In this document: one piece after another, positions 51,572 through 55,551 of the stretch
Numbering within the stretch: position 1 is the stretch's first letter
Layout: each line of letters starts with the position of its first letter
NCBI RefSeq assembly: GCF_036323475.1
Contig: NZ_AP028934.1
Location: 310,001-374,000, forward strand
Direction: 5' to 3'
DNA length: 64,000 nt
From: Solobacterium moorei
Lineage (GTDB): Bacteria > Bacillota_I > Bacilli_A > Erysipelotrichales > Erysipelotrichaceae
The notes under the pieces: model-generated
What the model was told of the DNA's origin: nothing
Databases searched by the model: none
The model's input: the letters and a program-made list of their open reading frames with translations, nothing else
Translations under genes and position numbers: made by a program

Positions 51572-52798
51572 ATGAAAGAAATTGTTACTCTTGGCGGTCT
51601 ATTTTTAGAAGGATTATTATCATTCTTCTCACCATGTATTCTTCCACTCGTTCCGTTATACATTGGGTACCTGACAAAGGGTTCCATGATGACAGACGAA
51701 AATGGGCAAGTACATTATGATCGAATGAAGACACTCATTCTAACAACAGGCTTTGTCTTAGGAATCTTGACGGTGTTCGTGATTGCAGGACTTGGATCTA
51801 GTGCACTTGCAACGGTATTCAAGCAGTACACATTGCAGTTACAGATTGCTGGTGGTGTATTACTAGTTATCCTAGGTCTAGCGAATCTGCACATTATCAA
51901 TATTCCTTTCTTGAATCAGACACACCAAAAAACAATGCGTGTAGAAGGTGGAATGACTTTCTTAAAGGCGTTTGCGTTGGGCTTTGTGTTTAGTTTTGCA
52001 TGGTCTCCATGTGTAGGCCCATTATTGGCCCAAGCAATTGTACTAGCATCCACTGCTACAAATGGACTTGGTTGGCTGTATATTGCGTCTTATGCACTTG
52101 GATTCATCGTCATCTTCCTACTCATTGGATTCTTCACGGAGGAAGTATTGAATATCATCAATCGTCACAAGAGTATTGTGAAGTATACAGGTGTACTTAG
52201 TGGAATTCTTGTATTAGCAATGGGATGCTTTATGTTATTCCAAGGCTTTACAACAATGAAGGCACTACAGAATCGTTCTTCTACAACTCCAGCAGAAACA
52301 ACAGTAGATGATTCGAAAAAGGATACAGCTAGTAAGGAAGATACTTCTAACAAGGATGATTCATCTGCAAAGACATCTATCGAAAAATATAACTTTGCGC
52401 TCGTAGATGGTGAAGGTAATGTTCATAATCTGAGTGACTACAAAGGAAAGACAATTGTCATGAATTTCTTTGGTACATGGTGCCATTACTGTAATGAAGA
52501 ATTTGAAGGATTACAGAAGATTAATGATGAGATGAAGGATGATGTTCAAGTGTTGATGATTGCGGCACCAGGTCTGAATGGTGAAGGTAGTATTCAGTAT
52601 GTTGAAGAATACATGAAGAAGAGAGGATATAACTTTACAATTCTGTACGATACAACATTAGAAGCTACAGATACATATCATATTTCAGGTTATCCAACAA
52701 CGTATATCGTTCGACCATCAGGAGATTTCTTAGGATATGTACCAGGCTATGTGTCTGAAGAACAAATGCGTAATTATATCAAGACAGCACAAGAATAG
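51572..52798 (+). CDS. CcdA-thioredoxin (TlpA-like) fusion
   Basis: A 408-residue protein joining a six-span CcdA/DsbD-like membrane domain (about 1-230) to an extracytoplasmic thioredoxin-like domain. [13 protein letters not shown] and [13 protein letters not shown] supply the two membrane Cys residues that carry electrons from cytoplasmic thioredoxin. A low-complexity linker rich in Ser, Thr, Asp and Lys (about 232-270) leads to the TlpA domain with WCHYC (C304, C307). It would deliver reducing power outside the membrane. It ends at a terminator now duplicated by an IS insertion. Confidence 0.9.
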
Positions 52799-52852
52799 TA
52801 GAAAGTATCAATATTTGTATAAACGAACAAAATTGATCAGTTGAAAACCTTC

Positions 52853-52879
52853 AAACCTTCGAAAGAAGGTTTTTTCTCT
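52853..52879 (+). terminator. Terminator of the CcdA-fusion gene, left copy of 27-base target duplication
   Basis: ACCTTC/GAAGGT around a GAAA tetraloop with a T tract. The same 27 bases recur at 54410-54436 on the far side of the IS. Confidence 0.92.
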
Positions 52880-54409
52880 GTCAACCAAAAATGAAAATGT
52901 CTTAAAAATTAACGAACATTAGCGGAGCTATAATAGTTCTGCTTTTTTGTAAATAATTGATATGAATACTTCCTCCAAGGGTGAGATATCGGCGGAATAT
53001 ATACTTTCTTTTTCTCAGGAGTTTCAATGATATTATCGAACTCACCCGAATTTTCTTCAAACACTTGTACTTCTTCTAAGATGTATAGTGTATCCATCGC
53101 ATTGACAAAGATCTTTTGATCAAATGATTCAATAACCAATACCTCCATCTTAGGTCTTAGTGGAATTCTATTGTGTTCCTTGTCATAGGCCATCCAATAC
53201 TTGTTTTTGAACTTGATACAGTTGCCTTGATCGACTATTCTCGATGAAATGATTGCCAATGTTTGATTGATTGTTTCTATATCTGGTTGTACTTCAAATA
53301 CAGAATTGGTACTATTCAAGTGTAGGGCGAACCTTGCATTGAATTCCTTTAGGTAGGATTTTAGGAACTTATTCGCGTCCGCCATACAAGTAATACGAGC
53401 ACGTCTAAGTTCAACTGGCAAACGTGATTGGAAAGTCTGGTTGAGACGTTCGATGCGTCCTTTGGCTTGTGCGATGCTCGTTGTTTTGATTTCGACACCA
53501 AGGTTATGGCAGGCGTAGGAGAACTGTGTGAAGGTATCCTCGTCGTCGAAGGCCTTGGTTTTCTTTCTGTATTCAAATACGGTTCGTTTATCCGTATAGA
53601 ATAGAGCGGGTATGCCATAGTCGACTAGTATCTGATGGAAAACGTTGTAATAGCCACATAGGGTCTCTTGTATATCAAAGTAGGCTCCAACAGCAGTACC
53701 GGTCGCATCATCTACAGCTAGGTGTAGATGCCATATCTCGCCAGGAATCCATTCGTAGCTTGAAGCGTCCATTTGAATCATCTCTCCCATATATTTGGAT
53801 CTAGATCTTCGTGAATGAGGCGTATCATCTTCAATTGATTCGATTTGTTCATTGATTGCGTTTCTGGCCTTTGTAGATGTTGTTTGGTCTAATCGTTTTG
53901 TCAAACGTTCCTTTAATTGTTTCTTGGTTTTTCGATGGGCCTTTGGGGACAAGACATCGTGTTCTGATAACCAGTTTCTAATAGTGGTGTCACTGATGGA
54001 GATGCCGAGGTCCATCTGGACGATTTCACTGAAATGAGTGATGTTGGCATCAAGATACTCGTTAAGATAGAGTTCAATGATTTTGTTTTTCGTTTCCAGT
54101 GAGAATGTGTTTGATGGTAATCGTCCACGATTACCATGTGAAAATGAGGATTTGCCTTCAGACTTATAACGTGTAATCAGGCGGTTGATAGTACGAATAG
54201 AACAATTTAGTTTTAATGCCGCACGGCGTTTATTGCCAGAATGATCAACCAGTTCTTTAATAATGTTGTATTTGTTTTCTTCCATAGGGGTTAATATAAT
54301 CTTTTTCATATTCAATCCAATCTAATGGAATGAATCATAACAATTCCTTTCTATAAATGGGGCATTTTCCCTTTCGGTTCATTAAGACAATATCAACTTC
54401 GATTCAGAC
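52880..54409 (-). mobile_element. IS1202-like (ISNCY) insertion sequence
   Basis: A 1530-base element flanked by identical 27-base direct repeats, matching the very long duplications known for the IS1202 group. Both ends begin with GTC and share an inward-facing TGTCTTAA block (52898-52905 on the left, mirrored near the right end), forming an imperfect inverted repeat. It carries one intact transposase gene and has landed inside a terminator hairpin. Confidence 0.88.
52909..54315 (-). CDS. ISNCY/IS1202-type transposase
   Basis: A 468-residue DDE transposase, apparently intact. An N-terminal helix-turn-helix (AALKLNCSIRTINRLITRYK) and a second one (ISDTTIRNWLSEHDVL) bind the ends; the catalytic core shows MIQMDASSYEW, FYTDKRTVFEY and AQAKGRIERLNQTFQSRLP. 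These wordings, the length and the 27-base target duplication fit the IS1202 group rather than IS481 or IS3. Confidence 0.88.
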   Translation of the reverse strand: MNMKKIILTPMEENKYNIIKELVDHSGNKRRAALKLNCSIRTINRLITRYKSEGKSSFSHGNRGRLPSNTFSLETKNKIIELYLNEYLDANITHFSEIVQMDLGISISDTTIRNWLSEHDVLSPKAHRKTKKQLKERLTKRLDQTTSTKARNAINEQIESIEDDTPHSRRSRSKYMGEMIQMDASSYEWIPGEIWHLHLAVDDATGTAVGAYFDIQETLCGYYNVFHQILVDYGIPALFYTDKRTVFEYRKKTKAFDDEDTFTQFSYACHNLGVEIKTTSIAQAKGRIERLNQTFQSRLPVELRRARITCMADANKFLKSYLKEFNARFALHLNSTNSVFEVQPDIETINQTLAIISSRIVDQGNCIKFKNKYWMAYDKEHNRIPLRPKMEVLVIESFDQKIFVNAMDTLYILEEVQVFEENSGEFDNIIETPEKKKVYIPPISHPWRKYSYQLFTKKQNYYSSANVR

Positions 54410-54436
54410 AAACCTTCGAAAGAAGGTTTTTTCTCT
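54410..54436 (+). terminator. Duplicated terminator, right copy of 27-base target duplication
   Basis: Identical to 52853-52879. Its last T is the first base of the malR -35 box, so it also insulates malR from transcription out of the IS. Confidence 0.88.
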
Positions 54437-54502
54437 TGACACTTTGTAAACGCTAACATATTATTTTGATGTATCCTGTAAACGTTTCCGTAAACGGTTA
54501 CG
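54436..54502 (+). promoter_or_regulatory. malR promoter with LacI-type operators
   Basis: TTGACA (54436-54441) and TATTAT (54459-54464), 17-base spacer. Operator-like sites: TGTAAACGCTAACA in the spacer (54445-54458), TGTAAACGTTTCC (54477-54489) and the near-palindrome CGTAAACGGTTACG (54489-54502). The layout suggests autorepression by MalR. Confidence 0.75.
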
Positions 54503-54519: not shown

Positions 54520-55551
54520 ATGACGACAATTAAAGATATTGCACGTATTTCAGGGTATAGCATTGGAACAGTTTCCAGAGTTATCAATAACCATCCTGAT
54601 GTTAGTGTGGTAGCAAAGAGAAAAATTGAAAAGGTAATTAAGGACGAAAAGTTTGAACCAAACTCAAATGCGAAACTTTTAAAACAATCTGCGACATCCG
54701 CAATTACGATTTTGATTAAGGGATTGCACAATGCATTCTTCAGCATCATAGTCGAAAAGATGCAAAGTTATCTGCAGGAAAGCGGTGAAGATGTCTCGGT
54801 CGTATACTTGGATGAACTTGAAAATGAAGTGGAAGTAGCAATTCGCATCTGTAGTGAGAAGAAACCAAAGGGTTTAATCTTCTTGGGTGGCAATCAGAAA
54901 TATTTCCGTGAGTCATTTGCGAGCATCAAAGTACCATGCGTGCTCTGTTCAGAGAGTGCAGCAGGGATGAACTTTAGTAATCTTTCTAGCTTTACGACAG
55001 ATGATAGAGAAGCGGCATGCGCAGCAGCGGAATACTTGATTCGCTCTGGACACAGAAAGATCGGAATTGTATGTGGTTCGGCTGTATCAGAAGCGGGATT
55101 GATTGGTTCAAAACGTGTTGAAAGCGCAATCGCAGCGTTTAAAGAAAACAAGATACCGTTTAATAAACGTAAGCAGTTTGTGCCAGGAAAGTTCTCACTT
55201 GAAGATGGATATAACGGTACGATGAAATTATTAGACCGTTATCCAGAAGTTACCGCAATCTATGCGGTCAGTGACGTTGTGGCAATTGGCGCACTACGTG
55301 CAATCAATGACCGTAAGTTAAAGGTTCCACAAGATATATCCATCATCGGTAATGATGGCATTGACTTTGCAAGGTATGTAACACCACGTCTAGCAACTGT
55401 TGAGCAAGATGCTTCACAACTTGCCAAACGCAGTGTAGATGACTTGTTATTAAGATTAAATTACAATAAACCTGTCATACATGAAATTATTCCATTCCAT
55501 GTATTAGCGGGAGAAAGTATTCGTATTAAAAAACCAGTGGAGGAAAAGTAA
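54520..55551 (+). CDS. malR: LacI-family transcriptional regulator of the maltose locus
   Basis: A 343-residue repressor. Residues 2-23 (TIKDIARISGYSIGTVSRVI) are the LacI helix-turn-helix and hinge; the rest is a periplasmic-binding-protein fold (about 58-335) with AIYAVSDVVAIGALRAIND and ISIIGNDGIDFARYVTP as ligand-domain landmarks. AAAAGGGG precedes the ATG. One base separates its stop from malK. Sites before both malR and malE share the 13-mer TGTAAACGTTTCC, so it probably represses both; maltodextrin as inducer is inferred from context. Confidence 0.88.
   Translation: MTTIKDIARISGYSIGTVSRVINNHPDVSVVAKRKIEKVIKDEKFEPNSNAKLLKQSATSAITILIKGLHNAFFSIIVEKMQSYLQESGEDVSVVYLDELENEVEVAIRICSEKKPKGLIFLGGNQKYFRESFASIKVPCVLCSESAAGMNFSNLSSFTTDDREAACAAAEYLIRSGHRKIGIVCGSAVSEAGLIGSKRVESAIAAFKENKIPFNKRKQFVPGKFSLEDGYNGTMKLLDRYPEVTAIYAVSDVVAIGALRAINDRKLKVPQDISIIGNDGIDFARYVTPRLATVEQDASQLAKRSVDDLLLRLNYNKPVIHEIIPFHVLAGESIRIKKPVEEK

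Follow-up and report, generated by a model that had tools for sequence, protein, structure and literature searches.

Probable fixed-register targeting of predicted sigmaA promoters by IS1202-family elements with long target duplications

The insertion sequence upstream of malR in the analyzed stretch of the Solobacterium moorei genome (64,000 nucleotides, hereafter the window; Table 1) is a member of the IS1202 family with a long target duplication, and such elements very probably (probability about 0.9) target sigmaA promoters, as predicted from sequence, in a fixed register. In the sequences, one end joins the first base of the -35 hexamer, and the other lies about 27 bp farther upstream. 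With the junction at this base, the repeat spans approximately -36 to -62, presumably the alpha-CTD/UP-element region, and the core promoter survives downstream of the element. The IS1202 family was sorted by duplication length into groups with 3-5 bp, 16-28 bp and no duplication, and no conserved target was found for the latter two (Harmer et al. 2023, PMC10132070). The sites described below supply a target for a group for which none had been found, the predicted sigmaA promoter being met at single-base register. No report of promoter targeting at a -35 register by the IS1202 family or other bacterial insertion sequences was found in the literature searched, in which subscription journals are sparsely covered; the family is known, and the accessible literature does not describe this class of target for it.

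Table 1. Features of the insertion sequence and its target site (positions within the window)
Feature	Position	Strand	Remarks
IS1202-family insertion sequence	52879..54408	-	1530 bp; from genome comparison and flanks
DDE transposase, 468 aa	52909..54315	-	TTG start as listed; in-frame ATG at 54309; TnsB-like fold predicted
Left imperfect terminal inverted repeat	52879..52905	+	Starts with TGTCAA, the inverse complement of TTGACA; from sequence
Right imperfect terminal inverted repeat	54382..54408	-	From sequence
27-bp target duplication, left copy	52852..52878	+	Contains terminator hairpin of upstream gene
27-bp target duplication, right copy	54409..54435	+	About -62 to -36 of malR promoter
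malR promoter, predicted sigmaA-type, targeted	54436..54464	+	TTGACA 54436-54441, 17 bp, TATTAT 54459-54464; from sequence
malR, LacI-type regulator, downstream	54520..55551	+	Codirectional with promoter; name from translation and first-pass annotation
Upstream gene, CcdA/thioredoxin-like membrane protein	51572..52798	+	Terminator duplicated; assigned by reading the translation

Direct-repeat comparison revealed 28 identical nucleotides flanking the window element (52852-52879 and 54409-54436), i.e., the 27-base identical repeats of the first-pass annotation were one base off at the left. Since relatives retain the TGTCAA left end where the target has no such T (e.g., loci L247, L228 and L266), the last T of the repeat is assigned to the insertion sequence, and the duplication proper therefore comprises 27 nt, as originally claimed. 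Chance is excluded as the origin of an exact 28-nt repeat around a 13-copy element. The 27-bp imperfect terminal repeats run from TGTCAA at the left to ..CAGA (TCT.. inward) at the right, the TGT form being present at one end only; several relatives have right ends ..CACA or ..GACA. The family is described as having outer 5'-TGT and ACA-3' ends, imperfect terminal inverted repeats 22-29 bp long, a DDE transposase of ~394-507 aa in which Q follows E by seven residues, and a TnsB-like fold with HTH domains, RNase H fold, beta barrel and C-terminal domain (PMC10132070). Compared by their published description, IS1202 and ISSeq2 resemble the window element in size, DDE transposase with Q at E+7, TGT left end, imperfect repeats and a duplication of 27-28 bp, while differing in that no target was found for their group (PMC10132070). 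The earlier assignment to the IS1202 family, including the argument from duplication length, is supported by the Q at E+7, the NCBIfam ISNCY match and the 27-bp duplication.

The transposase matches the NCBIfam model NF033594 (ISNCY family; E 7e-116, 387 bits vs a cut-off of 250). Alignment of nine sequences showed conservation of D183, D242, E289 and, seven residues past E, Q296, the former three presumably being the catalytic residues as judged from the conserved motifs. Q at E+7 occurs in 144 of the 148 proteins in which the motif was found. The AlphaFold model (mean pLDDT 70.7) has TnsB as its best PDB matches (7svw_B, E 9e-12). In addition to this predicted fold, a C-terminal tail following a low-confidence linker is shared with TnsB of Tn7 and type V-K CAST, whereas the window element consists of a single ORF without TnsC, TnsD or guide RNA. 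The tail (residues ~440-462; 52909-53000, minus strand) carries a conserved HPW[KR] motif, present in 140 of the 146 proteins from 27-bp-type elements and in none of the 10 from 17-bp-type elements, and is reminiscent of the C-terminal tail by which TnsB binds its partner. The HPW tail as sole promoter-finding part was rejected, since some 17-bp elements are also located at promoters.

Promoters were scored as matches (out of 12) to TTGACA-N16-18-TATAAT, with offset 0 being the first base after the repeat. The S. moorei genome (2.6 Mb, one contig) harbours 13 near-identical copies with 0-5 mismatches relative to the window copy. Lining up their flanks revealed a hairpin in the window copy only; the feature common to the copies is a predicted sigmaA-type promoter on the right, the -35 hexamer of which starts at the first base past the repeat. 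Of the 10 copies whose duplication is intact, nine reach 8/12 or more at offset 0, and L018 reaches 7. Copy L015 has a 9/12 promoter at 27 bp, and in case of L016, the right repeat is split by an IS30-like element, beyond which the repeat continues and is followed by TTGACT-N17-TAAAAT. Features downstream of the copies are those of real transcription units: Rfam predicts tRNA genes (L011, L015 and L019), a T-box leader (L020) and a TPP riboswitch (L014), and translations of other downstream genes read as RNase Y, rpmH-rnpA, rplM, a lysyl-tRNA synthetase-like protein (lysS-like) and malR. Copy L021 lies within a prophage, with a promoter-like sequence antisense to a structural gene. L015 and L019 share the same right flank (tRNA promoter) and differ in their left flanks, pointing to copy recombination or duplication. 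IS30-like elements are located inside the right duplication of two copies and adjoin the left one (L016 and L017, right flank; L164 and L165); they may favour these junctions.

Altogether, 115 duplication-defined sites were analyzed, 10 of the window element and 105 of relatives in Bacillota, three of the sites belonging to a clade with 17-bp duplications (10 own copies, 17 from the family, 38 GTDB-named, 50 from Lactobacillales and L163-type). They were retrieved from 272 genomes of the same family, Erysipelotrichaceae (19 with matches at E 1e-60 or better, own genome included), from a scan of GTDB contigs (79 loci) and from 395 genomes drawn from the order to which Lactococcus hodotermopsidis belongs (matches at E 1e-40 or better in 19). 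A first set of 115 transposase hits in 112 loci was reduced to 67 sites (41 without duplication, 7 duplicates) and a second one of 67 hits to 54 (12 without duplication, 1 duplicate). Merging yielded 120 distinct duplications, of which five were dropped on account of left end or repeat length; two of these (L065 and the outer junction of L111) do show a promoter. The L284 copy and those of genome G013 are outside the 115 sites.

A promoter of at least 8/12 is present at offset 0 in 96 of the 115 sites (at least 9/12 in 81), compared to 2.74 % of the other offsets within 100 bp of the same flanks, to 2/115 on the opposite strand at the junction and to 5/115 in a left-flank control (60 bp left of the left junction). 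Within 100 bp, the best site is at offset 0 in 87 cases, within 1 bp in four and elsewhere in 24. The excess at offset 0 corresponds to a binomial log10 P of -128.8, with sites treated without correction for relatedness. Base frequencies across 67 sites read TTGACA at +0 to +5 (T97 T89 G79 A70 C61 A67, in %) and TATAAT at +23 to +28 (T79 A77 T49 A71 A67 T82); information is much lower between the hexamers and downstream of them, and beyond -28 the bases belong in part to the IS end. In 103 of the 115 sites, the duplication measures 26-29 bp. Orientation is also fixed: the end nearest the transposase start faces the predicted promoter, and the transposase reads away from it. The longest ORF within the next 800 nt is codirectional with the promoter in 89 sites, opposite in 19 and absent in seven, the upstream split being 73/33/9.

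Random insertion followed by selection sparing genes and promoters is a very improbable source of this pattern. Insertion upstream of a promoter should indeed be mild, but selection cannot confine the junction to a single base and strand, as seen in 96 of 115 sites, and insertions 5-50 bp farther upstream should be equally mild, yet the other offsets are at background. Selection alone is ruled out for the register by this offset comparison, and may shape which promoters are found occupied. Since the host promoter survives targeted insertion, the latter should do little harm, which would in turn allow many copies and sites beside essential genes.

Against a strict promoter register, 19 of the 115 sites score below 8/12. 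Four of these (L075, L111, L233 and L240) lie between members of tandem arrays, and several others combine a poor -35 hexamer with a good -10 or show a 1-bp shift; scoring revealed no clean promoter at L261, L242, L243, L241 and L259. Twelve copies without duplication were also tried, 10 of which gave an IS end; in seven, a promoter scoring at least 8/12 lies 25-28 bp away from this end. At this distance, none was found in L256, L016 and L017, the latter two being disturbed by IS30-like elements, and L166 has a slightly better score farther away, at 54 bp. One of the seven, located upstream of cfr(D) on a plasmid of Enterococcus faecium, has a promoter-like sequence 28 bp from the IS end. The copy L070/L087 has several long direct repeats (45-102 bp) on both sides.

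Tandem arrays are what would be left by repeated same-register insertion at one promoter. Locus L111 is organized as repeat-IS-repeat-IS-repeat with three identical repeats, the last followed by TTTACA-N17-TATACT. In L233, two different elements (~43 % and 65 % identical to the L140 query) are flanked and separated by one and the same repeat, its last copy preceding TTGTTC-N17-TATAGT.

The first-pass annotation had proposed the terminator hairpin as insertion target. Repeat comparison and folding substantiate its underlying observation that each window repeat contains the whole hairpin and T tract, so that a terminator is present on both sides: a 7-8 bp stem with GAAA loop is followed by T6, at z-scores of only -1.3 and -1.7 vs shuffled sequences. 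Terminator-hunting mobile elements exist in the form of group IIC introns, and a resemblance to them would be expected if hairpins were the target. The survey of the 115 sites, however, disclosed no link to hairpins, the outcome that the first-pass annotation had itself named as refuting its proposal, since a hairpin with T-tract is present in a single duplication (that of the window), equal to the one each in two control windows, rendering terminators scarcely credible as target. By contrast, the abutting -35 box, mentioned in passing by the same annotation, is the general rule among the insertion sites.

In case of malR, the right repeat abuts the -35 box as described, the shared last T (54436) being the first base of TTGACA. 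The locus was matched in 22 of 60 genomes, and six of these loci (L170, L171, L172, L174, L177 and L178) were inspected; all six have the promoter without insertion sequence, with a TTGAC- -35 box and the same 17-bp spacing, indicating that it is native rather than created by the element. Since this promoter lies directly behind the terminator of the upstream gene, insertion at the -35 box with a 27-bp duplication necessarily copies the terminator, which happens to fill -36 to -62 and is incidental to targeting. As a local consequence, it is plausible that the upstream gene retains its terminator and malR gains one behind the insertion sequence as insulator.

As for the mechanism, the transposase would dock on a promoter occupied by RNA polymerase-sigmaA, or on a factor bound to the promoter, with the polymerase edge at -35 setting the register. 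We lean slightly towards such docking because both hexamers and their 17-bp spacing are conserved though the cuts lie at or upstream of -35, because -10 matches are fairly high at sites with poor -35 hexamers, and because the duplicated segment is presumably the stretch contacted by alpha-CTD. Alternatively, the transposase itself could read the -35 (and -10) DNA, e.g., by a TTGACA target mimicking its own TGTCAA end. This appears rather unlikely. In its favour, 109 of the 115 sites have TGTCAA as left end, which is the inverse complement of TTGACA, and T occupies position 0 in 97 % of 67 sites; however, the -10 hexamer 23 bp off is conserved as well, and even where -35 has only 1-2 matches, the average at -10 is 4.4-4.75 of 6. 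Mimicry is further weakened by the five informative sites of elements with other ends, as those with TGTAAA (L112 and L076) and TGTTAA (L163, L279 and L280) hit TTGA.. and not TTTACA or TTAACA. The compensation test showed no correlation between -35 and -10 matches (r 0.05), hence provides no signal to separate docking from direct readout. Guidance by DNA shape (upstream DNA that is A+T-rich, bent or wrapped, or supercoiling near active promoters) instead of a promoter-bound protein is improbable: the A+T content of 75 % in the duplication vs 64-70 % in the flanks would agree with it, but a composition gradient yields no single-base register with both hexamers.

The promoter habit extends to some relatives with shorter duplications. 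Locus L163, a paralogue in the same genome (30-32 % identity), as well as the copies L279, L280 and L284 of three relatives have duplications of 16-18 nt and a predicted promoter starting at the next base. In a copy on a Spiroplasma plasmid, a 17-nt repeat is followed by an extended -10, but at a spacing of 15 bp to the junction. Five copies of G013, from the same 17-bp clade, are not located at promoters, four of them with repeats of 15-18 nt, so that family-wide promoter targeting is rejected. One of the five (L286:1408-2830) resides inside a CRISPR array, within a repeat. In the phylogenetic tree, the 27-bp type, the 17-bp type and ISEsa1-like rows each lie on one side of a branch, three rows of the 27-bp group without a detected duplication (L091, L094 and L098) having been placed by similarity.

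In the promoter-using cases, of which few are 17-bp sites, the right junction appears fixed at -35 and the other cut lies one or two helical turns upstream, which fits the discrete duplication lengths of 5-6, 15-17 and 24-29 bp given for the IS1202 group (PMC10045372). One may tentatively speculate, at somewhat less than even odds, that the whole group docks a TnsB-like transposase on RNA polymerase-sigmaA promoter complexes, with one cut set by the polymerase at the edge of -35 and the other falling one (17 bp) or two (27 bp) turns upstream; this would represent a bacterial counterpart of Ty3-type tethering and explain the discrete lengths. The yeast retrotransposons Ty3 and Tf1 integrate upstream of promoters, where transcription factors (Pol III initiation factors in case of Ty3) tether them to a fixed or narrow position. 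Unlike the IS1202-type elements, for which tethering is only inferred, these are eukaryotic retroelements.

Within the family, the ISAjo2 group of dif/pdif hunters likewise shows fixed orientation and a fixed distance from the site of a host protein (XerC; PMC10132070). It differs by duplications of 3-5 bp and a recombination site (XerC side of dif) as target (PMC10132070), whereas the 27-bp duplication and the promoter at the junction place the window element outside this group.

If RNA polymerase sets the register, these elements would constitute a bacterial transposon tethered to the transcription machinery. Their landing sites, including that upstream of the cfr(D) resistance gene on the Enterococcus faecium plasmid, should be predictable, and each insertion would serve as a natural pointer to a promoter. 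The transposase may likewise represent a single-protein integrase inserting upstream of genes while leaving promoters unbroken.

Two observations concern more distant members. ISEsa1-like copies of the group without duplication abut an Rfam sok antitoxin hit ending at the IS end (about locus position 727/728) in L296, L298 and L300, i.e., in three of the four loci scanned, with no such hit in L295; hok/sok loci may be the target of this group. Phage records yielded only distant relatives, and distant IS1202-like transposases are located near the ends of many prophage-like records of 9-13 kb (H43-H60, most from Vibrio).
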